Shown here in pieces: positions 4,926-16,014 of a stretch of DNA of 39,685 nt. This DNA comes from Streptomyces coryli. GTDB lineage: Bacteria; Actinomycetota; Actinomycetes; Streptomycetales; Streptomycetaceae. The position numbers were made by a program, and so were the translations under genes. The stretch lies in NCBI RefSeq assembly GCF_011044975.1, contig NZ_JAAKZV010000049.1, positions 1 to 39,685 of the forward strand, written 5' to 3'. The first letter of the stretch is position 1. The number at the start of each line of letters is the position of its first letter. Below the pieces are notes generated by a model, which worked only from the letters and a program-made list of their open reading frames with translations, did no database searches and was not told where the DNA came from.

Positions 4926-5705
4926 TCACAGCTCCGTGACGATGACGTCCAGTTTGTTCGCGGCAGGGGCCTCGACCTGGTAGCCGAGGTCCCGCAGGGC
5001 ATCGCCCAGCGCCGCCGGGGTCCGCGGATTCGCGCCTTCCGTCAGCAGCGAGCGGAGCAGCCGGCCCTTCGTCGCCTTGTTGAAGTGGCTGACGACCGTC
5101 CGCTTCTCGACGCCGCCGACGATCTTCGACTGCAGCACCCGCACCGTGGCCGTGCGCGCCGCGAGCTCGCCCTTCGGCTTCCATAGATTCGCGTACGCCG
5201 AGGAGCGCAGGTCGAGCACCAGCCCGCTGCCGGCGGCCTCCGGCATGACGGCGTCCATGTGCGTACGCCAGAAGGCCCCGAGCCCGCCGATGCCGGGCAG
5301 CGCGACGCCGCCGGAGCAGCGGTAGGCGGGGATCCTGTCGCCGATACGGACCGCGCCCCACAGCCCCGAGAAGATCAGCAGCGACTTGGCGGCGCGGCGC
5401 TTGGCGGCGGCGTCGAGCGTCGCGAGGCCGAGCGCGTCGTAGAGCACGCCGGTGTAGATCTGCCCGGCGGGGCGGGTGGGCGCGGTCCGTAGCCGGGCAT
5501 TCTTCGCGATCTCGCCGCGCAGCCCCTCGCTGAGGCCGAGCACCTCGCGTGCCTTGTCCTCGTCGGCGGAGCAGAGTGCGACGAGCTCGTCGAGTACGGT
5601 CTCCCGCGCGGCCGTCAGTCCGGGCAGGGACAGCGCCGCGAGGTCGAGCGGTGCGCCGCGATGGCCCTCGGCCTTGCCCTCCGAGGGCGGCAGGAGCACG
5701 AGCAC
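4926..5705 (-). CDS. yaaA: Peroxide stress protein YaaA (DUF328)
   Basis: A 259-aa member of the YaaA/DUF328 family. In E. coli YaaA limits intracellular iron and protects against hydrogen peroxide, and related proteins bind DNA; no enzymatic residue set is agreed. Characteristic motifs visible are LLPPSEGK at the N-terminus, GQIYTGVLYDALGL, FSGLWGAV, IPAYR, LVLDLRSSAY and VVSHFNK. The GTG at 5705 is clearly the start: AAGGAG sits 7 nt upstream, with a TAGGCT -10 box (5750-5755) about 45 nt upstream. A much longer in-frame extension across the RNB gene is spurious. Divergent from the RNB ribonuclease and co-oriented with eda. Confidence 0.93.
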   Translation of the reverse strand: MLVLLPPSEGKAEGHRGAPLDLAALSLPGLTAARETVLDELVALCSADEDKAREVLGLSEGLRGEIAKNARLRTAPTRPAGQIYTGVLYDALGLATLDAAAKRRAAKSLLIFSGLWGAVRIGDRIPAYRCSGGVALPGIGGLGAFWRTHMDAVMPEAAGSGLVLDLRSSAYANLWKPKGELAARTATVRVLQSKIVGGVEKRTVVSHFNKATKGRLLRSLLTEGANPRTPAALGDALRDLGYQVEAPAANKLDVIVTEL

Positions 5706-5749
5706 GATGGGTCTCCTTCTTACGTTCCTTGCGTCTGCGCGCCGGATGA

Positions 5750-5810
5750 AGCCTACGCAACGCCGCGCGCGCAGCGGGCGCCCCACCTCCCGGACGCCTA
5801 CGCTGGCAAG
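5750..5810. promoter_or_regulatory. Divergent promoters for yaaA and the RNB ribonuclease gene
   Basis: On the minus strand TAGGCT (5755-5750) is a plausible yaaA -10 box, giving a leader of roughly 35-40 nt that contains the AAGGAG site. On the plus strand TACGCT (5799-5804) ends 6 nt before the RNB ATG, the spacing typical of leaderless actinobacterial transcripts. No convincing -35 hexamers were identified for either. Confidence 0.5.
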
Positions 5811-7292
5811 ATGCCGCATCGTCTGATGAGCTGCAGCGACGCAGCGGACTCCCCGCTCAGCCAAGCCCTGCGGGAGCTCAGGGAACGGGAGCAGGTGCCC
5901 GCCGAGTTTCCCGCCGAGGCGCTCGCCGAGGCGGAAGCCGTGGTCAAGGCGCCGCCGATCGCCGTCGGGGTGCAGGACGCCACCGACATTCCCTTCTTCA
6001 CCGTCGACCCGCCCGAATCCATGGACCTCGACCAGGCCATGCACCTCTCCCGCCGGTCCGGGGGCGGCTACCGGGTCAGATACGCCATCGCCGACGTCGC
6101 CGCGTTCGTCACCCCGGGCGGGGCGATCGACGCCGAGGCGCACCGCCGCGTCACCACCCTCTACTTCCCAGACACCCGGGTCCCGCTGCACCCCGAGATC
6201 CTCTCCGAGGGCGCCGCCAGCCTGCTCCCCGACCAGACCGCCCCGGCCCTGCTGTGGGACATCGACCTCGACTCCAGCGGCGCCGTGGCCGCCGTCCGCC
6301 TTGGCCGCGCGCTCGTCCGCAGCATCGCCAAGCTCGACTACGCCGGCGTGCAGCAGACCATCGACGAGGGCACCGCCGAGGAGCCCGTAGCGCTCCTCCG
6401 GGACATCGGGATGCTGCGCGAGGAGATCGAGAAGGCCCGCGGCGGCATCTCCCTCGGCGTGCCGGAGCAGGAGGTGGTCGAGCGCTCCCCGGGCCACTAC
6501 GGCCTGGAGTACCGCGCCCCGCTCCCCGCCGACGGCTGGAACGCGCAGATCTCCCTTCTCACCGGCATGGCCGCCGCCGACCTGATGCTGACGGCGGGCT
6601 TCGGCATCCTCCGTACGCTGCCGCCCGCGCAGCGCAGCGCGGTCGAATACCTGCGCCGGGTCGCCAAGGCGCTCGACGTCGACTGGCCGAAGGACACCGA
6701 CTACGCCACCGTCATCCGCACCCTCAACCCCCAGCGCGCCAACCACGCCGCCTTCCTCCAGGAGTGCACCACGCTGCTCCGCGGCGCCGGCTACACCGTC
6801 TTCGACGGCACCCCGCCGGAACAGGCCGAGCACGCGGCGGTCGCCGACGAGTACACCCACTGCACCGCCCCGCTGCGCCGCCTCGTCGACCGCTACTCCG
6901 GCGAGCTCTGCCTGGCCGCCGTCGAGGGCCGCGAGCCCCCGCAGTGGGTGCGCGACGCCATGCCGGCCCTGCCGGAGGAGATGGCCGAGGGCAGTGCGCG
7001 CGCCAACCGCCTGGAGCGCGAGTGCGTCGACCTCGCCGAGGCGGCGCTGCTACGGGACCAGGTCGGCGAGGTCTTCGACGGCTACGTCATCGACGTCAAC
7101 GACCGCAAGGACCCGGTACGCGGCACCGTCCAGCTCTACGAGCCCGCCGTCATCGGCCGCGTCGACGCCACGCCGGACGCGCCCGAGCTGTCGCTCGGTC
7201 ACCGGCTCCGGGTGCGGCTGACCGAGGCGGAGCCGGGGGAGTCGGCCGTACGCTTCGTGCCGGCCACGGCGGACGCGGGGTCGTCTGCGTAG
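5811..7292 (+). CDS. RNB-domain 3'-5' exoribonuclease (RNase II/R superfamily)
   Basis: A 493-aa protein whose RNB catalytic domain starts near residue 58: the metal-binding motif DPPESMDLDQA holds D66, D72 and D74, followed by YAIADVAAFV and a conserved TLYFPDTRVPLHPE segment. The actinobacterial short form lacks the clear cold-shock and S1 domains of full-length RNase R, which fits this length. It should degrade single-stranded RNA 3' to 5' in the cytosol. The ATG at 5811 is preferred because TACGCT lies 6 nt upstream (leaderless); an ATG five codons later is possible. The final 94 bp overlap, on the opposite strand, the end of the downstream membrane-protein gene. Confidence 0.92.
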   Translation: MPHRLMSCSDAADSPLSQALRELREREQVPAEFPAEALAEAEAVVKAPPIAVGVQDATDIPFFTVDPPESMDLDQAMHLSRRSGGGYRVRYAIADVAAFVTPGGAIDAEAHRRVTTLYFPDTRVPLHPEILSEGAASLLPDQTAPALLWDIDLDSSGAVAAVRLGRALVRSIAKLDYAGVQQTIDEGTAEEPVALLRDIGMLREEIEKARGGISLGVPEQEVVERSPGHYGLEYRAPLPADGWNAQISLLTGMAAADLMLTAGFGILRTLPPAQRSAVEYLRRVAKALDVDWPKDTDYATVIRTLNPQRANHAAFLQECTTLLRGAGYTVFDGTPPEQAEHAAVADEYTHCTAPLRRLVDRYSGELCLAAVEGREPPQWVRDAMPALPEEMAEGSARANRLERECVDLAEAALLRDQVGEVFDGYVIDVNDRKDPVRGTVQLYEPAVIGRVDATPDAPELSLGHRLRVRLTEAEPGESAVRFVPATADAGSSA

Positions 7293-8095
7293 AAGCGGAC
7301 CGGGCCCTGGATTGCGGCCACCTTGCCCAGCGGCCGGACGAAGCGCAGCGGCTCGCCCTCGGTGAGCTCCACCGTCACCGTGGTCTGGCTGCTGACCGCC
7401 AGGTCGAGCGACCCGTCGTCGCGCACCAGCGCCGGGCCGCCGCCGTCGGGGAAGCAGCGGTCGGTGCGGACCCGGGCGATGCGGTCGGCAGGGATACGGA
7501 GCCCGAGCAGCACGCCGTAGCGGAGGTGCAACGAGCCGTCGGCGGCGATCACATGGGGGCGCACGGCGCAGGAGGCGTGCAGGGCGATGATGAAGTAGAT
7601 GCCCCAGATGTCGATGACCAGGAAGGTCAGGTGCACCACCGGCCACGGGATGATCAGGGCGAGGGCGACGGTCTCGATGACGGAGACGAAGAGGAAGCCC
7701 CAGATCACGAAGGACTGACCGGCGGCGTATGTCACCGCCGCGTCCCCCGGGCCGACGCCGTGCGGCGGGCGGCGGGTGATCCAGCGGCAGAAGCTGGTGA
7801 AGAGCTTCAGCTCGTGGACGGTCAGGCGGCGGACGGTGGCCGGGGCCGTGTCCCGTACCGCCGCCAGGAGGGCTTCGCGGGGCGGGAGTCCGGCCGCGCG
7901 GTGGCGCCGGTGGTCCGCGGCGAGCACGGTGGCCGCGGCGGCGAAGAGCGCGAGGGTCAGCGCTTCCACGGCGCGCTGCACCGGGGCGGGTATGGACGCG
8001 CCCGAGACCAGGCAGATGACCAGGACCAGCTCGCCCGGGACCGCCGCGAGCATTCCCCAGCGGACGACCCTGCGCAGCGCGTTCACCGGTTCCAC
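7199..8095 (-). CDS. Unidentified multi-pass membrane protein
   Basis: A 298-aa protein with hydrophobic segments around residues 13-33, 45-60, 126-146 and 150-175, followed by a soluble C-terminal portion (LRYGVLLGLRIPADRIARVRTDRC) that resembles the PH-like domain often found after membrane helices, although I cannot assign it firmly. Its start overlaps the end of the MerR gene by 13 bp, so the two form a coupled operon transcribed from the MerR promoter. The membrane protein is therefore the probable regulatory target or partner of that MerR protein. The last 94 bp run antisense to the RNB gene. Function unknown. Confidence 0.8.
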   Translation of the reverse strand: MEPVNALRRVVRWGMLAAVPGELVLVICLVSGASIPAPVQRAVEALTLALFAAAATVLAADHRRHRAAGLPPREALLAAVRDTAPATVRRLTVHELKLFTSFCRWITRRPPHGVGPGDAAVTYAAGQSFVIWGFLFVSVIETVALALIIPWPVVHLTFLVIDIWGIYFIIALHASCAVRPHVIAADGSLHLRYGVLLGLRIPADRIARVRTDRCFPDGGGPALVRDDGSLDLAVSSQTTVTVELTEGEPLRFVRPLGKVAAIQGPVRFYADDPASAVAGTKRTADSPGSASVSRTRSR

Positions 8096-8877
8096 CGCTC
8101 TTGGAACAGGTCCATCGCGCGGCGCAGGGCCTCCGCCTGGGCGGGGGCGAAGTCCGCGAAGATGGCCTCCGCGAACCCCCCGCCGTCCTCGTCCGCCGCG
8201 GCGCCGTCGGGCGGCGGCTGGAACATCTCCGCGGGCATGCTGTCCGCGACCATCCGCGCCACTTCCGGGATGCGCGGGTCGTCGGCGGCGGCGTCGGCGA
8301 GCTCGTCGAGCCGGGCGTAGATCTCGTACGCCCGCTCCATGGCCTGCTCATCGGCGCTGAGGGTCTGGACGAGGCCGAGCATCCACGACCGCTGCCCCTC
8401 GTCCGCGGTCGTGTCCAGCAGCGCCAGCAGCTCGCGCTCCTTCGCCGCCATCGCGGGCTCGGGGCCTTCGCGGCGCGCGGTGGTACGGGCCATGTCGTCG
8501 AAGACCGCGGCGAGTTGGGGGGAGACCGGGCCCTCGGGCGGCAGGCCGCCGGCGTCCGCGCGCCGCAGCAGCTCGGCGAGCCGGGCGCGGCGCTGCCGGA
8601 TGGCCTCCTCCTGGCGGGCCAGGTCGGCGTCGAGCTCGGCGAGGATCTCGCGCAGGTCCTTGCCGGCGTCGTCAGCGAGCGCGTCACGCACCTCGTCGAG
8701 GCTGAGCCCGAGCTCGGTCAGGCGCCGGACGCGGGCCAGCTCGACGGCGTCGCGCATGCCGTACTCGCGATAGCCGTTGGGCTGCCGGGCGGGCTCGGGC
8801 AGCAGGCCGATGCGGTGGTAATGCCGCACCGTACGGGGGGTGACGCCGGCGATCGCGGCGAGCTCTCCGATTCGCAT
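8083..8877 (-). CDS. MerR-family transcriptional regulator
   Basis: A 264-aa regulator. Residues 1-70 are a typical MerR winged helix-turn-helix (MRIGELAAIAGVTPRTVRHYHRIGLL, then PNGYREYG), followed by a long helix with EEAIRQRRARLAELLRR for dimerisation. The C-terminal 150 residues are helical and acidic, without an obvious metal-binding cysteine cluster, so an organic ligand or multidrug-type effector is more likely than a metal. The ATG at 8877 lies 6 nt from a -10 box, indicating a leaderless transcript. The promoter has the 19-bp spacer with centred dyad that MerR proteins twist, strongly suggesting autoregulation together with the overlapping membrane-protein gene. Confidence 0.92.
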   Translation of the reverse strand: MRIGELAAIAGVTPRTVRHYHRIGLLPEPARQPNGYREYGMRDAVELARVRRLTELGLSLDEVRDALADDAGKDLREILAELDADLARQEEAIRQRRARLAELLRRADAGGLPPEGPVSPQLAAVFDDMARTTARREGPEPAMAAKERELLALLDTTADEGQRSWMLGLVQTLSADEQAMERAYEIYARLDELADAAADDPRIPEVARMVADSMPAEMFQPPPDGAAADEDGGGFAEAIFADFAPAQAEALRRAMDLFQERWNR

Positions 8878-8883
8878 GCCCCC

Positions 8884-8914
8884 AGTAGAAACGTTGTCGT
8901 TGCGACAAGGTCAA
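8884..8914 (-). promoter_or_regulatory. MerR-type promoter: 19-bp spacer with centred dyad
   Basis: Read on the minus strand, TTGACC (8914-8909) and TCTACT (8889-8884) are separated by exactly 19 bp. The spacer contains the perfect dyad TTGTCG-CAA-CGACAA (8908-8894). The -10 box ends 6 nt before the merR ATG. This is the classic elongated-spacer layout of MerR-activated promoters. Confidence 0.8.
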
Positions 8915-8923
8915 GCGGCGCGC

Positions 8924-8972
8924 TTGACGGCTAACGCTGTTAGCCGTACGGTTCTGGTTAACGGTGTTAGCC
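8924..8972 (+). promoter_or_regulatory. TetR-type promoter with two operators
   Basis: TTGACG (8924-8929) and TACGGT (8947-8952) are 17 bp apart. The perfect 7-3-7 dyad GGCTAACGCTGTTAGCC (8929-8945) fills the spacer. A second, near-identical copy GGTTAACGGTGTTAGCC (8956-8972) follows at a centre distance of 27 bp, over the expected transcription start. Both are natural operators for the TetR protein encoded second in this operon; occupancy would block RNA polymerase. Confidence 0.78.
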
Positions 8973-8993
8973 AGGAACTCCCGAGGAGGACCC

Positions 8994-9440
8994 ATGAGCG
9001 CCACGACCACGACCGCGATCCGGCCGCAGCCCCGAAGCCGGACCCGGGCCCGGACCGTCACCCGCCGCTTCGTCCGTACCGCCTGGGCCGCGAGCGCCCT
9101 CTTCTGGGGCGCCCTGGCGGTGATGGAGGGCATGAACCACGGCGCGCTCGCCTACCTCTTCGCCGCCGTCTTCTTCATCGCGCCCGACCTGACGTTCCTC
9201 GTCGCCGTCCGGGACGCCCGCACCGCCCGTCCCGGCCAACTGCCGCCCCGCGCGGTGCCGTTCTACAACGCCGCCCACCGGGCGCTCGTCCCCGTCGCGC
9301 TGCTGGTGATCTACACGTACGCGCCGATCACGTGGGCGCCGATCCTCGCGGCGCTGTCCGGCTGGATCGCGCACATCTCGATGGACCGCGCCTTCGGCTA
9401 CGGTCTGCGGACAAAGGAAGGATTCCAGCGTGCCCACTGA
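8994..9440 (+). CDS. DUF4260-like small membrane protein
   Basis: A 148-aa protein with an Arg-rich N-terminus (about 25 residues) and four hydrophobic segments. The C-terminal signature WIAHISMDRAFGYGLRT strongly resembles the HIGxDRxxGYGLKY motif of DUF4260 membrane proteins; the family has no established biochemical role. The ATG at 8994 is preceded by GAGGAGG at an ideal distance. It is the first gene of an operon with tetR, whose GTG start lies 11 bp inside its 3' end. Expression is presumably repressed by that TetR through the two upstream dyads. Assignment to DUF4260 is from motif memory only. Confidence 0.85.
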   Translation: MSATTTTAIRPQPRSRTRARTVTRRFVRTAWAASALFWGALAVMEGMNHGALAYLFAAVFFIAPDLTFLVAVRDARTARPGQLPPRAVPFYNAAHRALVPVALLVIYTYAPITWAPILAALSGWIAHISMDRAFGYGLRTKEGFQRAH

Positions 9441-9969
9441 ACCGGTTGCCGGCCTGCAGCTCAGCCCCCGCGCCCGGCAGATCGTCGGCGCCGCCCGCGA
9501 ACTCCTGGAGAAGGAGGGCGAGGACGCGCTGACGATGCGCCGGATCGCGGACCGCATCGGGGTCAAGGCCCCGTCCCTGTACAAGCACTTCCCGGACAAG
9601 ACGGCCGTGGAGGTGGAGCTGATGGCGATCCTGCTGGAGGAGATGGCCGCGGCGCTGGAGGCGGCGGAGGCCGCGGCGCCGGGGTCGCTGGAGGCGCTCT
9701 TCGAGGCGTATCGCGGCTACGCGGTGGCGCATCCGGGACTGTACCGCCTCGGCACCCAGAAGCCGCTGCCCCGCGAGTCGCTCCCCGCGGGCCTGGAGGA
9801 GCGGGCCGCCGCGCCGCTCTTCCGCGAGCTCGGCCTGGACGAGCACACCGGGCGGGCGGCGTGGGCGTTCGCGCACGGGATGGTGGTGCTGGAGCTGGCC
9901 GGCCGCTTTCCCGACGGCGCCGACCTGGACGAGGCGTGGCGGGTAGGGGCGGCGGCGTTCACGCGCTGA
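9430..9969 (+). CDS. TetR/AcrR-family repressor
   Basis: A 179-aa protein. Residues about 13-60 are the TetR DNA-binding domain (RQIVGAARELLEKEGEDALTMRRIADRIGVKAPSLYKHF), followed by a helical ligand-binding domain resembling the TetR_C_33/WHG-like C-terminal domains (HPGLYRLGTQKPLP). The GTG start at 9430 overlaps the upstream gene by 11 bp and has AAGGAAGGA upstream. Tandem dyads at 8929-8945 and 8956-8972 in the operon promoter are its likely targets, giving autorepression. The inducing ligand is unknown. Confidence 0.9.
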   Translation: MPTEPVAGLQLSPRARQIVGAARELLEKEGEDALTMRRIADRIGVKAPSLYKHFPDKTAVEVELMAILLEEMAAALEAAEAAAPGSLEALFEAYRGYAVAHPGLYRLGTQKPLPRESLPAGLEERAAAPLFRELGLDEHTGRAAWAFAHGMVVLELAGRFPDGADLDEAWRVGAAAFTR

Positions 9970-9992
9970 CGGTCTTTACGCCCGTACGAGGT

Positions 9993-10466
9993 CTACGCGC
10001 TGACGATCGGCTGGACCCGGACGGGAAAGCGTACGGAGTTCGTGACGAAGCACTTCTCGCGCGCGGCGTCGTGCAGCTTTGTCGCCATGTCCACCATGGC
10101 CGGGTCCGCCACCCGCACCCGCGGCCGCAGCGCCACCTCGCTGAAGTGGTCGGGCTCGCCGCCGCGTTCGGAGAGCAGCCCGCGGGCGTGATCCTCGTAC
10201 GACGTGACGACGACGCCCTCGGCGGCGCACAGATGCAGATACCAGAGCAGATGGCACTGGGCGACGGCCGCCGTCAGCAGCTGCTCCGGATTCCAGCGGG
10301 CGGCGTCCCCGCGGAAGGCGCCGGTGTCGGCGCTGCCGGCGATGGGGGTGTGCGGACCTGGCGCGGTCACGGTGTGGTCGCGGGCGTAGCCCTCGTGCCC
10401 GCTGGTCCCGCTGCCGCGGTCGCCGGTCCAGGTGACGGTGATGTCGTACGGAAATTCCGTGGTCAC
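9993..10466 (-). CDS. OsmC-family peroxiredoxin-like protein
   Basis: A 157-aa OsmC/Ohr superfamily protein. The family reduces organic hydroperoxides with two conserved cysteines; here they appear in AAVAQCHLLW and AREKCFVTNS. The N-terminal beta region (DITVTWTGDRGSG) and the NPEQLLTAAVAQC helix are typical. The GTG at 10466 is preferred over an ATG 7 codons upstream because a TACGCT -10 box (10479-10474) lies 7 nt before it, implying a leaderless message. It diverges from the AraC gene with only 29 bp between starts, so the two may share regulation. Confidence 0.88.
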   Translation of the reverse strand: MTTEFPYDITVTWTGDRGSGTSGHEGYARDHTVTAPGPHTPIAGSADTGAFRGDAARWNPEQLLTAAVAQCHLLWYLHLCAAEGVVVTSYEDHARGLLSERGGEPDHFSEVALRPRVRVADPAMVDMATKLHDAAREKCFVTNSVRFPVRVQPIVSA

Positions 10467-10495
10467 GCCGCCGAGCGTAAAGCACAATGCGGCCC
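10467..10495. promoter_or_regulatory. Compact divergent leaderless promoter (osmC-like / araC-like)
   Basis: Minus strand: TACGCT (10479-10474) followed after 7 nt by the GTG of the OsmC gene. Plus strand: CACAAT (10483-10488) followed after 7 nt by the ATG at 10496. Both -10 boxes fit in 29 bp, leaving no room for leaders, so the upstream promoter elements must lie inside the opposing coding sequences. Confidence 0.5.
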
Positions 10496-11341
10496 ATGAC
10501 AGCCGCCGCCTGCAGCGATCGCCGGGAGCACGCCGCGTATTCGCGGGCCGCGCTCGGCACCGGCGGCGAGGCGCTCGGCCTCCTCACCGCGTGCTTCACC
10601 GAGCACCGGTTCGCGCCGCACAGCCACGACGAGTTCAGCATCGGGATGTGGACCGGCGGGCTCGAGGTCATCGACTATCGCGGCGGGCAGATGTACGCCG
10701 GGCCCGGCACCGTCGTCGTGCTGGCCCCGGGGGAGATGCACACCGGCCGCCCGGCGGGCGACGACGGGTACGCGTACCGCGCCTTCTACCCGCGTCCTGA
10801 GCTGTTCACGGACGGCACCCGCGGCGCCCCGCACTTCACCGAGGGCGTCTTCCACGACCCCGAGCTCGCCGACCGGCTGACCGCCGCGCACCGCGAGATC
10901 AGCCGGTCCGCGGATCCGCTGGAGGCAGAGTCGCGAGTGCCGTGGCTGCTCACGGCGCTGGCGCGGCGGCACGGCCGGGCGGGGACCGTACGGGACGCGC
11001 TGCCGGGGGCGGGGGAGCTGGCGCGGGCGGTCCGCGACCGGCTCGCCGACTCGGTGCTCGCCCCGCCGTCGCTCGCCGACATCGGCTGCGAGCTCGGCCT
11101 GTCCCGCTACCAGGTGCTGCGCGTCTTCCGCGACGCGATGGGCCTGCCGCCGTACGCCTGGCTGGCGCAGCACCGGGTCGCGCGGGCGCGCGGGCTGCTG
11201 GAGGCGGGGCGGACGCCGGCGGAGGCGGCGGCGCTGGTGGGGTTCGCGGATCAGGCGCATCTGACGCGGTGGTTCCGGCGGGTCATGGGGGTCACGCCCG
11301 GGGCGTATCGCAACAGCGTTCAAGACGGGGTGCCCTGCTGA
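10496..11341 (+). CDS. AraC-family transcriptional regulator
   Basis: A 281-aa protein. The N-terminal cupin-like sensor domain (HSHDEFSIGMWTGGLEVIDYRGG, then APGEMHTGRPAG) is followed by a C-terminal AraC double helix-turn-helix (LADIGCELGLSRYQVLRVFRDAMGLPPYAWLAQHRVARAR and VGFADQAHLTRWFRRVMGVTPGAYR). The ATG at 10496 is favoured over the ATG three codons upstream because of the -10 box spacing. The immediately downstream EamA-type exporter, 16 bp away, is co-transcribed and is the most likely target, an arrangement common for AraC-controlled LysE/EamA exporters. Confidence 0.92.
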   Translation: MTAAACSDRREHAAYSRAALGTGGEALGLLTACFTEHRFAPHSHDEFSIGMWTGGLEVIDYRGGQMYAGPGTVVVLAPGEMHTGRPAGDDGYAYRAFYPRPELFTDGTRGAPHFTEGVFHDPELADRLTAAHREISRSADPLEAESRVPWLLTALARRHGRAGTVRDALPGAGELARAVRDRLADSVLAPPSLADIGCELGLSRYQVLRVFRDAMGLPPYAWLAQHRVARARGLLEAGRTPAEAAALVGFADQAHLTRWFRRVMGVTPGAYRNSVQDGVPC

Positions 11342-11357
11342 GGGTGAGGGTGCGGGC

Positions 11358-12302
11358 ATGAGCGCACGCGGTTGGATTCTCTTCGTCGGTCTCGCGGTGG
11401 TGTGGGGCGTCCCGTACCTGATGATCAAGGTGGCGGTGGGCGAGGTCTCGCCGTCGCTGGTCGTCTTCAGCCGGTGCGCGATCGGGGCGGCGCTGCTGCT
11501 GCCGTTCGCGCTGCGGCAGGGCGGCATGGGGCGCGTGGTCCGGCGGCACTGGCTGCCGCTGCTGGGCTTCGCGGCCTTCGAGGTGCTGGGCCCGTGGTAC
11601 CTGCTCAGCGACGCCGAACGCCACCTCTCCAGCGGCACGACGGGCCTGATCGTCGCGGCGGTCCCGGTGCTGAGCGTCTTCGTCGCGCGGCTGCTGGGCA
11701 GCTCGGAGCGGCTGGGCGGGGTGCGCTGGCTCGGCCTGGCGGTCGGCTTCAGCGGGGTGGCGGTGCTGTCAGTGCCGACGATGTCCGGCGGCGGGGTGTG
11801 GCCGGTCACGGAGGCCCTGCTCACGGCGGTCGGCTACTCGATCGCCCCGCTGATCGCGGCCCGCTACCTGTCCGAGGTGCCGACGCTGCAGGTCATCGCG
11901 CCGTGCTTGCTGCTGGCGACGTTCTTGTACGCGCCGGCGGCGGCGCTGACGTGGCCGTCGTCGGTGCCGTCGGCGGAGGCTCTGATGTCGCTGGTGGGCC
12001 TGGGCGCGATCTGCACGGCACTCGGCTTCGTGATCTTCCTCCAGCTGCTACGGGAGGTGCCGCCGTCGCGGGCGATGGTCTTCGTGTATCTGACCCCGGT
12101 GGTGGCGGTGACGGCGGGCGTGGCGTTCCTGGACGAGGAGATCACGTGGTGGGTGCTGGTCTCCTTCGTGCTGACACTGGCGGGGTCGGTGCTGGCTACG
12201 GCGCGGTCGAAGGCGGCGGCTACGTCGGCAGGGCTGGACGAAGGTCCTGCGCTCAATCGCCGGCCGACTCGGCCCGACGCCGCAGCTCAATCAGCGGAAT
12301 GA
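11358..12302 (+). CDS. EamA/DMT-superfamily transporter
   Basis: A 314-aa polytopic inner-membrane protein with ten predicted hydrophobic helices arranged as two EamA repeats (starting at WILFVGLAVVWGVPYLMIKVAV and at about residue 150, VTEALLTAVGYSIAPLI), typical of drug/metabolite exporters. The second repeat ends with the conserved VFVYLTPVVAVTAGVAFLDEEI segment. It follows the AraC regulator after 16 bp and is presumably controlled by it. Substrate unknown. The last 50 bp overlap the convergent deazaflavin reductase gene. Confidence 0.9.
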   Translation: MSARGWILFVGLAVVWGVPYLMIKVAVGEVSPSLVVFSRCAIGAALLLPFALRQGGMGRVVRRHWLPLLGFAAFEVLGPWYLLSDAERHLSSGTTGLIVAAVPVLSVFVARLLGSSERLGGVRWLGLAVGFSGVAVLSVPTMSGGGVWPVTEALLTAVGYSIAPLIAARYLSEVPTLQVIAPCLLLATFLYAPAAALTWPSSVPSAEALMSLVGLGAICTALGFVIFLQLLREVPPSRAMVFVYLTPVVAVTAGVAFLDEEITWWVLVSFVLTLAGSVLATARSKAAATSAGLDEGPALNRRPTRPDAAAQSAE

Positions 12303-12717
12303 GCCGGCCGGCCCGCTCCTGGTGCTCGGTGAAGAAGGGGGCCTGCTGGATCAGTTCGCCCCAGAGCCGCTCGCGCTCGTCGGCGGAGGCGACTGCGGCG
12401 ACGGCGTCGTAACGCTCGGGGCCGAGCTCCACGACGACCTCGTCAGGGTGGGCGACGAGGTTGTGGAACCAGTCCGGGGCCCGCGGCGCGCCCATGGCCG
12501 AGGCGACGATGAAGACGCGGCCGCCATCCAGCCGCCAGAAGCCCAGGGGGGTGGTCCGCCGCTTTCCGCTGCGGGCGCCGGTGTGGGTGACGAGCACCAT
12601 GCGGTCGGCGTGCATCATCTCGCCGATCTTCCCGCTGCCGCCCTGAGCCCGGAACTGCTCGGCGACCTGCTGGTTGAGGGCGTTTCGCTGCTCGGTGGTC
12701 ATCGAGAGGGGATCCAT
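12253..12717 (-). CDS. Nitroreductase/quinone-reductase family deazaflavin (F420)-dependent protein
   Basis: A 154-aa protein of the Ddn-like split-barrel family (PF04075) that uses cofactor F420H2 to reduce quinones or nitro compounds. Motifs are MVLVTHTGARSGKRRTTPLGF and APDWFHNLVAHPDEVVVELG. F420 use is inferred from the family. The ATG at 12717 is preferred (CAGATT -10 box 7 nt upstream, leaderless) over an ATG three codons earlier. The 3' end overlaps the EamA gene by 50 bp antisense. A second, divergent member of the same family occurs at 16035. Confidence 0.88.
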   Translation of the reverse strand: MDPLSMTTEQRNALNQQVAEQFRAQGGSGKIGEMMHADRMVLVTHTGARSGKRRTTPLGFWRLDGGRVFIVASAMGAPRAPDWFHNLVAHPDEVVVELGPERYDAVAAVASADERERLWGELIQQAPFFTEHQERAGRLIPLIELRRRAESAGD

Positions 12718-12756
12718 GCGCCCCAATCTGCCAGATCACCGGGCCCCGGGCCGGGG

Positions 12757-12820
12757 GATCACGCAGGCTAACCCGCGCGATCACGCAGGCTGAACCGGGC
12801 GATCACGGCAGGCTAAGATG
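12757..12820 (+). repeat. Three 22-bp tandem repeats carrying the rnpB promoter
   Basis: Copies begin GATCACGCAGGCT at 12757, GATCACGCAGGCT at 12779 and GATCACGGCAGGCT at 12801, a strict 22-bp period. The third copy has become TAAGAT (12814-12819), a good -10 box 8 nt before the 5' end of RNase P RNA. TGAACC (12791-12796) in the second copy sits 17 bp upstream in the -35 position. The promoter therefore appears to have been built from, or duplicated within, the repeat. Confidence 0.65.
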
Positions 12821-12826
12821 TCCGTA

Positions 12827-13250
12827 CGGCGGACGAGCCGGCCGGGCGGCCGCGTCGGTCCCTCTCACGAGGGGCCGCCGAGGAACGTCCGGGCTCCACA
12901 GGGCAGGGTGGTGGGTAACGCCCACCCGGGGTGACCCGCGGGACAGTGCCACAGAAAACAAACCGCCGGCGGCCCTCACGGGTCTGCCGGTAAGGGTGAA
13001 ACGGCGGTGTAAGAGACCACCAGCGCCCGAGGCGACTCGGGCGGCTAGGTAAACCCCACCCGGAGCAAGGTCAAGAGGGGCCCTCGGAAACGAGGACCCT
13101 GCGCGAGCACTCGAGGGCAGCCCGCCCGAGCTCGCGGGTAGACCGCTAGAGGCCGACGGCAACGCCGGCCGTAGATGGATGGCCGCCTCCCCCGGCGCCG
13201 CAAGGCCCCGGGGAGACAGAACCCGGCGTACAGGCCGACTCGTCCGCCGC
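12827..13250 (+). ncRNA. rnpB: RNase P RNA, bacterial type A
   Basis: The catalytic RNA that removes tRNA 5' leaders. The ends pair: CGGCGGACGAG at 12827-12837 is the perfect complement of CTCGTCCGCCG at 13239-13249 (helix P1). Conserved core segments are visible in order: GAGGAACGTCCGGGCTCC, ACAGTGCCACAGAAAA, GTAAGGGTGAAACGG with GTGTAAGAGACCACC, and TAGATGGATGG near the 3' end. The molecule appears complete, with a length of about 424 nt. Its last 34 nt are duplicated exactly at 14865-14898, marking the boundary of an island. Boundaries are accurate to a few bases. Confidence 0.95.
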
Positions 13251-13252
13251 CT
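13219..13252 (+). repeat. Putative attL: 34-bp direct repeat at the rnpB 3' end
   Basis: These 34 bases (GAACCCGGCGTACAGG...) lie over the 3' end of rnpB and are repeated without mismatch at 14865-14898. Similarity continues 11 bp further left (13208 versus 14854) with three purine transitions, making 42 of 45 identical. This is the signature left when a site-specific element integrates into an RNA gene while restoring its end. Confidence 0.75.
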
Positions 13253-13754
13253 AGGTCTTTGACGGTGCCAATGCTCTCCCTGCCGTCGAGGTGCCGGGCA
13301 TTGCGCAGGCAGGCGCACAGCGACGCCCGCCGTCACCAACGGGACGCCGAGCCCTACGCGCACATAGTGAGGCACATGTGCACGTCGTGTGCCCGCATTC
13401 GTTCACATGCTGTCCGCGAGATCATCTCATCGAGCATTTTTGGGTGATGTAAAGAAATCGTCCACTGTTACTCCACGTGAGGCCGGAATATCTGGCTCCG
13501 CTTCTTCAGGAATTATTAGTGCACGTCGAAGCCCGAACTCCCCTTCCCTGGTCAACGAGATTTCCGTTACGGTGATCTCGACCAAGGCACAGCCGAGGGT
13601 CCATCGTTGGGGGAACAACGGGGGATTGGCTGCGTGCGGAGCGATTGACCACGCCTGCGCACAGCCGAATCAACGTGTATTGGCGTGTCCAAAGGAATGC
13701 GTGGACACGTCGCCACTTCCCATGTCTTCCCGTGCGCGGATCCTTTGCTGCGCC
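13253..13754. other. About 500 bp without a convincing gene, AT-richer
   Basis: This left part of the island has reduced GC and A/T runs (for example GAGCATTTTTGGGTGATGTAAAG near 13433). Short open frames exist on both strands: 13389-13832 on + and a 63-codon frame at 13427-13618 on - starting with TTG. None has a ribosome site or the high third-position GC of real genes here. The minus-strand frame is the least implausible as a relic. Confidence 0.5.
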
Positions 13755-13789
13755 CAAAAAACCCCGTGGTGTCCTACCACCACGGGGTT
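13755..13789 (-). terminator. Strong intrinsic terminator for leftward transcription
   Basis: AACCCCGTGGTG (13760-13771) and CACCACGGGGTT (13778-13789) form a perfect 12-bp stem with a 6-nt loop. On the minus strand the stem is followed by a run of T residues (13761-13755 region), a canonical rho-independent terminator. On the plus strand there is no T tract. No minus-strand gene lies upstream of it within the island. Confidence 0.75.
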
Positions 13790-13818
13790 GACACTCACTC
13801 CCTTGGGAAGGGGCAGAT

Positions 13819-14577
13819 GTGAGCATTCGTAGTATGGCGCGGTCAGCCGGCGCAGGCAAGACCGCCCTGGTCGCCGCCGCGCTCATCGGCAGCATGATGG
13901 GCACCGTGACGTCCGCCGGCGCTGCCGACGCACCGAAGGCCGACGTGGCAAAGCCGACCGCCGCCGAATATGTGGCCTGGCTCGACAGTCAGAACACGGC
14001 CGAAGCCGACCAGACCGCGACCCAATTCAAGGAGCTGTCGGCTGAGAACCAGCAGAAGTTCCTCAACTACATCTCCGACCCGGAGATAGCCAAGGCACTG
14101 GCAGGCCAAAAGGGCGACCCCAACGCCGATCCGGACTTCGAAAGCAAGCGCACCGCCACCGGCGAAAGAACCAGCACGACGCTCGCCGGCGGCGATGTCG
14201 TCGTTTCGTCGGAATCCGGCGTTACGCCGCCGGCCAGCAGGGGCTCCGCCGGAGACTGGTCCTGCTATTACTGGGTCAACAACACGGTCCTCGGTATCGA
14301 GATCACCAAGCACACGCTCACGCAGACATACCACTCAACCTCGACCGAAGTTGACAAGGTGTACAGCGCGCGTGCCAGCCATAAGAACCTCAACCCCGGC
14401 GTGCAGGTCGACAACCAGCCCGAGGATCAGTGGATCTCGGCTGCGGGGAACGCCCTGGCCTACGTGACGTGGAACGTCGACTTCGTCTACAGCGGCAGCC
14501 AGATCCACATGGACAAGCTGCAGCACGTCCGTTGCGACGAGACGGGCTTCCGCGAGGGCTATATCAAGGACGCCTGA
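13819..14577 (+). CDS. Unidentified secreted protein on the rnpB island
   Basis: A 252-aa protein with a Sec signal peptide (basic MSIRSMARSAGAGK, hydrophobic core TALVAAALIGSMMG, likely cleavage after SAGA/ADA near residue 37). The mature protein begins with a helical, Gln/Ala/Glu-rich region (residues about 47-95, YVAWLDSQNTAEAD and LSAENQQKFLNYI). A linker follows, then a C-terminal domain rich in Trp/Tyr/Thr with beta character and two cysteines (WSCYYWVNN and QHVRCDETG) likely to form a disulfide. The GTG at 13819 has GGGAAGGGG upstream. I do not recognise a family. It is followed after 41 bp by a 52-aa membrane peptide in the same direction. Codon third positions are less GC-rich than neighbouring chromosomal genes, consistent with acquisition. 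Confidence 0.85.
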   Translation: MSIRSMARSAGAGKTALVAAALIGSMMGTVTSAGAADAPKADVAKPTAAEYVAWLDSQNTAEADQTATQFKELSAENQQKFLNYISDPEIAKALAGQKGDPNADPDFESKRTATGERTSTTLAGGDVVVSSESGVTPPASRGSAGDWSCYYWVNNTVLGIEITKHTLTQTYHSTSTEVDKVYSARASHKNLNPGVQVDNQPEDQWISAAGNALAYVTWNVDFVYSGSQIHMDKLQHVRCDETGFREGYIKDA

Positions 14578-14618
14578 GCAGACGAGCGCACGAGAGATCC
14601 GCGTAGAAAGGCAATCGG

Positions 14619-14777
14619 ATGGAAAGACGCATGAGCGCACGACGCCCGAGTCCACGCCCGAGGATCCCACGATCGCTGATCTGGTTCTTCGTCGTGTTGA
14701 TCGGTCTCATCGTGGTGGCCGGCGTCGCCGGGATGATCTACTACGCCGGTCTCGAAGACGTGACGACAACCAAGTAA
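14619..14777 (+). CDS. 52-aa single-pass membrane peptide
   Basis: ATG at 14619 to TAA at 14777. The sequence is a very basic N-terminus (MERRMSARRPSPRPRIPRS, eight Arg) followed by one strongly hydrophobic helix (LIWFFVVLIGLIVVAGVAGM) and a short tail ending DVTTTK. The ribosome site GAAAGG lies about 8 nt upstream. By the positive-inside rule the Arg-rich end stays in the cytoplasm. It is co-transcribed with the secreted protein and ends just before a hairpin. Possible roles include an immunity or anchoring partner, or a small toxin/holin-like peptide; nothing in the sequence decides. Confidence 0.7.
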   Translation: MERRMSARRPSPRPRIPRSLIWFFVVLIGLIVVAGVAGMIYYAGLEDVTTTK

Positions 14778-14783
14778 GCCAAT

Positions 14784-14830
14784 GGCCCTTGCCGGTTGAC
14801 GAGGCCCGCACCCCGCAATCGGCAAGGGCC
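14784..14830 (+). terminator. 11-bp hairpin after the island operon
   Basis: GGCCCTTGCCG (14784-14794) and CGGCAAGGGCC (14820-14830) are perfect complements around a 25-nt loop, starting 7 nt after the membrane-peptide stop codon. There is no T tract, so it is a T-less actinobacterial-type terminator candidate. It marks the end of the island's two-gene unit. Confidence 0.55.
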
Positions 14831-14864
14831 GCGGCACGAGCCAGGCGGGGATACCGGGAAGGCG

Positions 14865-14898
14865 GAACCCGGCGTACAGGCCGACTCGTCCGCCGCCT
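14865..14898 (+). repeat. Putative attR: second copy of the rnpB 3' end
   Basis: Exact 34-bp copy of 13219-13252. Only the rnpB 3' end is present; the rest of the RNA gene is absent upstream (the imperfect homology fades at 14854). It is followed directly by the promoter region of the topoisomerase gene, so the pre-insertion chromosome probably had rnpB adjacent to topoisomerase IB. Confidence 0.75.
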
Positions 14899-14938
14899 TT
14901 GTCGTCTTGACCTGCGTTTCTTAGCAGGTGCTGGTGGA

Positions 14939-14967
14939 CACCCCGGTCGCGGGAGGCGATCGGGGTG
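14939..14967 (+). promoter_or_regulatory. Hairpin sequestering the topoisomerase start codon
   Basis: CACCCCGGTCGC (14939-14950) pairs with GCGATCGGGGTG (14956-14967) over all 12 positions with one G-U pair. The 5-nt loop GGGAG is part of the ribosome site, and the right arm ends exactly on the GTG start codon. In mRNA this would hold the start codon in a stem, a layout suited to translational control. Confidence 0.55.
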
Positions 14968-16014
14968 CCCGAGTCAGGCAGCAAGATGTCGTCCAGGCTG
15001 CGGACCAGTGATCCGAATGGACCCGGCTTCGGGCGGCTGCGTTGCGGGCGTGGTTTTCGGTATCTCGATCCGCAGGGGCGGGCGGTCGCCGACGACCATG
15101 TGAAAGCGCGGCTGAAGAGCCTCGCGATTCCGCCGGCCTGGACGGATGTGTGGATCTGCCCCTGGTCCAATGGGCACCTGCAGGCCACCGGGACGGATGC
15201 CGCCGGGCGCAGGCAGTACCTCTACCACGAGAAGTTCCGTGCGCGGCAGGAGCGGGCCAAGCACGAGCATGTCCGGCAGGCCGCGGCGGCGCTGCCCGGT
15301 CTGCGGGACCAGGTCGGCAAGGATCTCGTGCAGCGTGGCCTGACGCGTGACCGGGTGCTGGCCTGCGCGGTGCGCCTGCTGGATCTGGGCTTCTTCCGTG
15401 TCGGCAGTGACAGTTATGCGCGGGCGAATGACACGTACGGGCTGACGACCTTGCTGCGGGACCACGCCGCCTGCCGCGGCGGCGAGATCTGCTTCCGTTA
15501 CCCGGCGAAGAACAGCAAGGCACAGGTCCGCGCCCTCGTGGACTCGCGGGCGTACGAGACCGTGCGTGCGCTGTGCCGCCAACGCCCGGCCGGGCAGCGG
15601 CTCTTCGCCTACCGGGATGGCGGTGGTTGGCGTGAGCTGCACAGCGACGACCTCAACGAAGGCCTGCGGCGCCTGTCCGGCACCGCCCTGACCGCGAAGG
15701 ACTTCAGGACCTGGCACGCCACGGTCCTGGCCGCCGTCGCCCTGGCCGTCTCCGCCCCCATGGCACGCACCTCGCCGGACGCCCGCACCCGGGCCATCTC
15801 CCGGGCGGTACGGGAGGTGAGCGACTACCTGGGCAACACCCCGGCGACCTGCCGCCACTCCTACATCAACCCCAGGGTCATCGAGCTCTACGAGGAGGAC
15901 GTCACCATCGCCTCCGATCTGGAACGTCTCGGTGAGCACGGGCGCTTCGGGCTGCCTGCTACGCAGGGGCCGGTCGAGGCGGCGGTGTTTCGGCTCCTCG
16001 AGCCAGTACGGTGA
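14965..16014 (+). CDS. DNA topoisomerase IB
   Basis: A 349-aa bacterial/poxvirus-type topoisomerase IB, which nicks one DNA strand through a 3'-phosphotyrosyl link and relaxes supercoils. The N-terminal DNA-binding part has the hallmark RLRTSDPNGPGF, GRGFRYLD, IPPAWTDVWIC and GHLQATGTDAAGRRQYLYH. The catalytic domain follows, with DLGFFRVGSDSYARANDTYGLTTL, AKDFRTWHAT and the nucleophile Y300 in CRHSYINPRVIELYEE. The GTG at 14965 has GGAGG 8 nt upstream, though both lie in a hairpin. The downstream deazaflavin reductase begins about 20 bp after the stop. It sits just outside the right repeat of the rnpB island, so I treat it as chromosomal; topoisomerase IB is common in Streptomyces. Confidence 0.94.
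   Translation: MPESGSKMSSRLRTSDPNGPGFGRLRCGRGFRYLDPQGRAVADDHVKARLKSLAIPPAWTDVWICPWSNGHLQATGTDAAGRRQYLYHEKFRARQERAKHEHVRQAAAALPGLRDQVGKDLVQRGLTRDRVLACAVRLLDLGFFRVGSDSYARANDTYGLTTLLRDHAACRGGEICFRYPAKNSKAQVRALVDSRAYETVRALCRQRPAGQRLFAYRDGGGWRELHSDDLNEGLRRLSGTALTAKDFRTWHATVLAAVALAVSAPMARTSPDARTRAISRAVREVSDYLGNTPATCRHSYINPRVIELYEEDVTIASDLERLGEHGRFGLPATQGPVEAAVFRLLEPVR

Follow-up and report, generated by a model that had tools for sequence, protein, structure and literature searches.

A putative integrase-less genomic island at the 3' end of the RNase P RNA gene of Streptomyces coryli

Why the end of the RNase P RNA gene (rnpB) occurs twice within a short distance in a contig of Streptomyces coryli, and what the DNA between the two copies represents, are the questions addressed here. 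The stretch of DNA analysed (hereafter the window) consists of 39,685 nucleotides (RefSeq assembly GCF_011044975.1, contig NZ_JAAKZV010000049.1, positions 1 to 39,685). An original prediction, made from the sequence alone, had described the interval as a small island of foreign DNA that lies at the rnpB 3' end and lacks an integrase. This is supported by the repeat, by the composition of the interval, by the absence of its cargo from 60 rnpB loci of other genomes and by integrase-bearing parallels elsewhere. The interval is probably an integrase-less genomic island left by site-specific recombination at the rnpB 3' end, its integrase having most likely been lost by deletion.

Direct repeat and composition of the island

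The sequences that define the island are as follows.

12834 to 13246, plus strand: rnpB, bacterial RNase P RNA class A, the target gene (Rfam RF00010, 258.6 bits)
13208 to 13257, plus strand: extended left repeat, 45/50 identical to 14854-14903
13219 to 13252, plus strand: putative core of the left attachment site (attL), the last 34 bp of rnpB (exact repeat)
14854 to 14903, plus strand: extended right repeat, 45/50 identical to 13208-13257
14865 to 14898, plus strand: putative core of the right attachment site (attR), an orphan copy of the rnpB end (exact repeat; no RF00010 match there)

The two 34-mers are identical and lie 1,646 bp apart, start to start. Alignment and shuffling bear out the perfect 34-bp duplication that had been claimed: in its extended form the repeat is identical at 42 of 45 positions up to the end of the 34-mer, and no match was obtained in 100 shuffles (35-mer, up to 3 mismatches), showing that it is not expected by chance. 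It is also the sole exact direct repeat of at least 20 nt in the window. The rnpB gene is intact and its displaced 3' end has the same orientation, which is the arrangement by which islands in structural RNA genes are recognised. The two copies would accordingly be named attL and attR, a role assigned here from their sequence and position.

The island unit comprises 1,646 bp (13219-14864) and has a GC content of 62.2% (0.622), compared with 71.6% (0.716) for the window. Among 697 sliding windows of the same length lying outside the island, the lowest value was 0.666, so the interval, which had been called AT-richer, lies below all of them.

Island anatomy and search for mobility genes

Within the island, the following features were identified.

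13253 to 13818, no strand assigned: left part of the island, 566 bp, 59.2% GC, apparently non-coding (ORF, Pfam, third-position GC and relic searches)
13760 to 13789, minus strand: 12-bp perfect hairpin with T-run, terminator-like, which would suit a leftward gene that is absent
13819 to 14577, plus strand: cargo gene 1, encoding a 252-aa predicted secreted protein (GTG start, N-terminal hydrophobic stretch)
14619 to 14777, plus strand: cargo gene 2, encoding a 52-aa single-span membrane peptide (hydrophobic 19-mer at 2.79; a small transmembrane ORF also lies 3' of other homologues of cargo gene 1)
14784 to 14830, plus strand: strong terminator-like hairpin after the cargo genes (z -3.41)

The secreted protein and the 52-aa membrane peptide had both been predicted; both open reading frames (ORFs) are present, and a purine-rich stretch precedes each. 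No Pfam match was obtained for seven further ORFs of the island, two of them lying over the cargo genes and five overlapping the left part. The left-part ORFs that lie inside it or cross its right end have a GC content at third codon positions (GC3) of 0.48-0.58, which is not coding-like, and the fifth ORF starts within rnpB. The hairpin at 13760-13789 fits the end of a leftward gene, and no such gene is evident.

The predicted absence of an integrase held. No tyrosine integrase or relic of one was detected in the island, the best signal having an E value of 0.83 (profile of rnpB-side integrases, filters off, stops masked), and no tyrosine integrase of the rnpB-adjacent kinds described below was found anywhere in the window. 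Serine recombinases, tested solely through Pfam on the island ORFs, gave no match, and neither cargo gene matches a recombinase. Only two island ORFs have a high GC3 together with conservation or other support, and neither of them matches a transfer family. The hallmark genes of actinomycete integrative and conjugative elements (AICEs) are an integrase, a replication initiator and an FtsK-like translocase; in the island no integrase was found and the cargo genes match no such family.

The rnpB 3' end as a recurrent integration site

Use of rnpB as an attachment site had been thought uncommon, but the genomes of Streptomycetaceae and Streptosporangiales do not bear this out. With at most one mismatch allowed, a 26-base pattern taken from the end of rnpB is present in 318 of 392 Streptomyces genomes and occurs in two or more copies in 34 of the 392, some of which are perhaps second rnpB genes. 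The reversed pattern, used as a control, gave none. Loci extending up to 19 kb downstream of rnpB were surveyed in 60 of 147 matched Streptomycetaceae genomes (the first 65 ranked by similarity to the window, minus G415, G417, G455, G509 and G522; several contigs end sooner), and the rnpB end was recognised by script in 55 of them. Five further copies were identified among these 55 loci, all on the rnpB strand and with 1 to 4 mismatches, located 1,139 bp (G507), 4,838 bp (G449), 6,099 bp (G523), 8,333 bp (G469) and 15,637 bp (G436) downstream. Control searches of 943,947 bases (opposite strand, reversed pattern and complemented pattern) returned no copies.

Pairs consisting of rnpB and a further copy on the same contig were also identified in G003 (Microbispora, 774 bp), G004 (4,802 bp), G052 (5,463 bp), G002 (Planotetraspora, 14,642 bp), G189 (21,227 bp), G355 (70,036 bp), G089 (74,981 bp), G171 (97,006 bp) and G377 (115,734 bp). 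In Microtetraspora (G001), rnpB is followed by further copies in series, 6,997, 838 and 2,337 bp apart. The presence of rnpB at one end is confirmed by RF00010 for G449, G004, G436, G002, G507, G189, G052, the viral-collection locus L088, and the Microbispora and Microtetraspora loci; for G355, G089, G171 and G377 its identity is based on rnpB motifs recognised by a script. G507 is the weakest case, as rnpB there keeps its terminator-like repeat. A role of rnpB as a recurrent bacterial attachment site (attB) in Streptomycetaceae and Streptosporangiales is supported, because multiple copies of its end recur and tyrosine integrase ORFs adjoin them.

Other rnpB sequences were noted on plasmids and in one genome with two long matches. 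A complete rnpB (L007:7627-8036) is carried by a 1.05-Mb linear plasmid of Streptomyces globisporus (NZ_CP108665.1). G416 has two long rnpB matches, on contigs C31 and C7, for which a second gene or contamination is possible. The 12-kb circular plasmid pNKL of S. noursei (NZ_CP007575.1) contains a 40-bp piece resembling the rnpB 3' end (85% identical, L006:7364-7403). It was considered as an integrating plasmid and rejected, since no tyrosine integrase was found and its large protein is Rep_1-like (31.9 bits, cut-off 33.2).

Integrases adjoining copies of the rnpB end

Elements with an integrase at the same repeat in other genomes had been proposed as a check on the island, and integrase ORFs were identified beside rnpB-end copies in nine loci. 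In eight of these the tyrosine integrase ORF lies no more than about 110 bp from the copy: L086, L087, L088 and L089 (four of the five loci from a viral-contig collection), L154 (G171), L158 (G089), L162 (G002) and L225 (G438). In the ninth, L166 (G452), the distance is about 420 bp. Seven of the eight close integrases are full length (353-478 codons, stop to stop); that of L162 is a 275-aa frame resembling PHROG integrases at its C-terminal end only. PHROG integrase families match L154, L158, L088, L089, L086 and L162, and Pfam Phage_integrase matches L154, L166, L225 and L087. The integrases of L154, L158, L087, L088 and L089 share 49-91% identity, and those of L086, L166 and L225 share 21-28% with that group where aligned; therefore, several integrase lineages sit at rnpB ends. 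These enzymes would presumably recognise the rnpB-end site. At rnpB in G438 (L225:16957-18246), a 1.3-kb interval has as its sole recognised gene a 352-aa tyrosine integrase ending at the orphan copy; the rnpB end of G438 is one of five missed by the survey script.

Partial integrases occur as well. C-terminal integrase fragments were identified next to one of the Microtetraspora copies and within the 774-bp interval of Microbispora, and in G355 only the last 35 integrase codons, in two frames, lie beside the copy.

Intervals without a recombinase and their cargo

PF00589 and PF00239 were searched in eight genomes, and neither was found inside the rnpB intervals of G189, G052, G004, G436, G449 and G507 (0 of 6), which span 1.1-21 kb; the G438 interval has its integrase. 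The island of the window, with its best integrase signal at an E value of 0.83, belongs with the intervals that lack one. The cargo of the group varies. The 21.2-kb interval of G189 (L232:408 to L233:9635) encodes PglZ, BrxC/PglY, PglX, BrxD and BrxHI of a bacteriophage exclusion (BREX) system together with a PDC-S27 candidate, and near-identical terminator-like sequence follows both of its rnpB-end copies. A hydrolase, an NmrA-like protein and regulators were identified in the G052 interval, a radical SAM protein and a regulator in that of G004, and a ricin-type lectin domain in the large protein tested from G436.

Two further intervals bounded by rnpB-end copies were noted. In Microtetraspora, the 838-bp interval (L163) contains one recognised gene, and a group II intron match is present at 11670-11746 of the locus. 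In G331 (L237, C1 2124143-2146979), genes for Cas10, Csm3/Cas7, Csx10-like and CorA-like proteins lie between two orphan copies, the effector genes being Type III-D CRISPR-like; a partial PF00239 match lies inside, at the edge of the interval, and a 571-aa frame with another such match lies just outside one copy. G331 was removed from the rnpB list, as neither of the copies flanking its 22.8-kb interval is at rnpB.

Origin of the island

Two features of the right flank bear on the history of the island.

14893 to 14990, plus strand: structured terminator-like DNA following the right copy (z -3.61; z is 0.77 for the DNA that follows the left copy), possibly the displaced flank of rnpB
14965 to 16014, plus strand: DNA topoisomerase IB, the first gene right of the island (Pfam PF01028 and PF21338)

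It is proposed that an element recombined with the host rnpB through an attachment site (attP) containing an rnpB 3' end that came from another lineage, so that the left copy would now complete rnpB and the right copy would be the displaced end. Integration may have been carried out by a tyrosine integrase of the kinds that adjoin this sequence in other genomes. Internal deletion would most likely then have removed the integrase gene together with the other mobility genes, so that attL, attR, a stretch of about 570 bp that looks non-coding and the two cargo genes remain. Re-mobilisation might follow through an rnpB-specific integrase acting in trans or after accretion. The island is best read as resembling a cis-mobilizable element (CIME), in which attL and attR are kept and the integrase is lost. 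By eye, a terminator-like inverted repeat lies downstream of most intact rnpB genes in relatives, and because a strong fold is also present right of the island, the original downstream flank of rnpB may have been displaced to this position.

Several observations weigh against this history. No integrase relic was detected in the island, so its decay is read from the parallels alone. No empty site between these flanks came to light: searches with rnpB and the left flank covered 150, 4 and 394 genomes (the last two at strict E limits), with a nearest rnpB match of 88%, and the best match of the right flank among 392 Streptomyces genomes was 74%. The right flank resembles intact rnpB terminators weakly, with a fraction of 0.065 of random stretches being as good, which is suggestive. 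The topoisomerase gene was found in none of the 60 fetched loci, so that the right flank is only a candidate for the ancestral one. The left arm, after trimming, matches the arms of other elements no better than chance (641 and 257 of 4000 random stretches did as well), and in this test the right flank is as close as, or closer than, the left to integrase-side arms (89 and 257 of 4000). Untrimmed, the 60-base stretch that follows the left copy on its right had been matched by none of 2000 random stretches against a hand-picked panel; this signal was not used, because it is gone once the bases adjacent to the core are removed. The arm sequences tie the island to no given integrase lineage.

The closest competing explanation is that the island is a minimal cargo cassette which never had its own integrase and was moved in trans by rnpB-specific integrases of phages, integrative and conjugative elements or stand-alone elements. 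In its favour are the six rnpB intervals without a recombinase match, the 1.3-kb interval of G438, whose sole recognised gene is a full-length integrase at the orphan copy, and the 838-bp interval with a single recognised gene among the serial copies of Microtetraspora; both copies in the window also retain the full 34-bp core. Decay, however, predicts the same intervals. In addition, 566 bp of the island look non-coding and carry an orphan minus-strand terminator, and a near-identical cassette in a second genome was not found (best protein 51%; none at E 1e-12). Both accounts remain, this one being considered unlikely and loss of the integrase being favoured from the comparison of loci, because partial integrases occur at the rnpB site elsewhere. 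A wider form of the same idea, in which actinomycete rnpB anchors a modular system where stand-alone or phage-borne rnpB-specific integrases act in trans on integrase-less cassettes that accumulate in tandem, is regarded as unlikely. If true, cassettes from one or two genes to whole defence systems would share the rnpB 3' end as their att site, and a structural RNA gene would serve as the base of something akin to a gene-cassette platform.

It is quite unlikely that the island belongs, as a single unit, to a longer tandem array, with the DNA right of 14898 (topoisomerase IB onward) forming a second element. Copies do lie in series in Microtetraspora and as a pair away from rnpB in G331, and the topoisomerase gene does not adjoin rnpB in the 60 surveyed loci; against this, no third copy of the 34-mer within 9 mismatches of 34 was found anywhere in the window. 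A partial duplication or gene conversion of the rnpB end, without site-specific recombination, would need no recombinase, and the further copy in G507, 1.1 kb downstream of an rnpB that keeps its terminator-like repeat, could be explained in this way. For the window such an event is highly improbable: the exact repeat reaches the rnpB terminus, the DNA between the copies is foreign in composition, the five further copies of the survey are all on the rnpB strand, and integrases adjoin such copies. Integrase loss from an element integrated at rnpB remains the preferred explanation.

Relation to known elements

In AICEs and prophages the integrase gene usually lies next to a copy of the att site. 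The rnpB elements of other genomes share this arrangement, whereas the island of the window yielded no gene for an integrase, for replication or for transfer. Islands of the Islander type, in tRNA and tmRNA genes, resemble it in that the RNA gene is intact and a displaced 3' fragment lies in the same orientation on the far side; it differs from them in its position at rnpB rather than in a tRNA gene, in lacking an integrase and in being shorter than 2 kb. As given in passages of its report, the Islander survey covered tRNA and tmRNA genes, demanded an integrase and discarded candidates below 2 kb (PMC4383910), and would miss the present island because its target genes, integrase requirement and length filter all exclude it.

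CIMEs are described, in passages of PMC5704250, as elements without integration and transfer genes that retain attL and attR, and the term has, according to passages of PMC8369830, already been applied in Streptomyces to TR1 at aviX1. Like these elements of streptococci and Streptomyces, as the same passages present them, the island keeps attL and attR and has no integration or transfer genes; CIMEs can also sit in tandem with complete elements. Unlike them, it targets the RNase P RNA gene, measures only 1.65 kb and is known without a related complete element or transfer.

Among the matches listed in the open-licence literature, none was found to describe integration at rnpB or the RNase P RNA gene; in the matching passages, rnpB or RNase P RNA is mentioned for other reasons or not at all (PMC10383233, PMC10763512, PMC2516327, PMC8776855, PMC2386152, PMC2705793 and PMC12884075). 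As far as the literature searched goes, rnpB is a new integration target. The RNase P RNA gene would join the structural RNA genes used as landing sites by mobile DNA, recurrently in two actinomycete groups. The site may be worth searching for genes of defence and competition, since one rnpB island holds BREX genes, and the rnpB-side integrases indicate an attB, conserved and mostly single-copy, that could be of use in strain engineering.

The cargo gene pair

The 252-aa protein could be placed in no family of Pfam, NCBIfam, PHROG or PADLOC, no solved structure resembles it at an E value of 1, and none of 18 aligned members of its family (the window and 17 of 30 fetched loci) has a Pfam match. 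The 52-aa peptide gave weak matches alone, below curated cut-offs where such exist. Homologues of the 252-aa protein were identified in 26 of 392 Streptomyces genomes (E 0.001; best identity 51%) and in nine Streptomyces plasmid records. No relatives were found in phages, in a scan of GTDB contigs, which detects close relatives only, or at E 1e-12 in 150 genomes of the family, where an empty answer proves nothing. No rnpB-end copy within 6 mismatches of 30 lies near the 30 fetched homologue loci (about 1.5 kb on each side).

Conservation of the two-gene unit as core would have spoken against a foreign island; the 252-aa protein is encoded in none of the 60 fetched rnpB-downstream loci, in which a positive control was found, and the unit is therefore not core there. 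A small ORF with one transmembrane span lies within 250 nt downstream of 7 of the 18 homologues (window included), compared with 5 of 420 control genes, the criterion having been tightened after a looser first look. Because of this difference the pair looks like a real unit, a secreted protein and a one-span membrane peptide that occur together sporadically in other Streptomyces. From the gene arrangement, a guess is that the cargo encodes a secreted antagonist with a membrane partner.

On the other side of rnpB, the homologue of window 5661-7292, which we take to be an RNB-type ribonuclease, ends directly upstream of rnpB in several relatives. In the window, 5.5 kb of other genes (7293-12833) lie between this region and rnpB.

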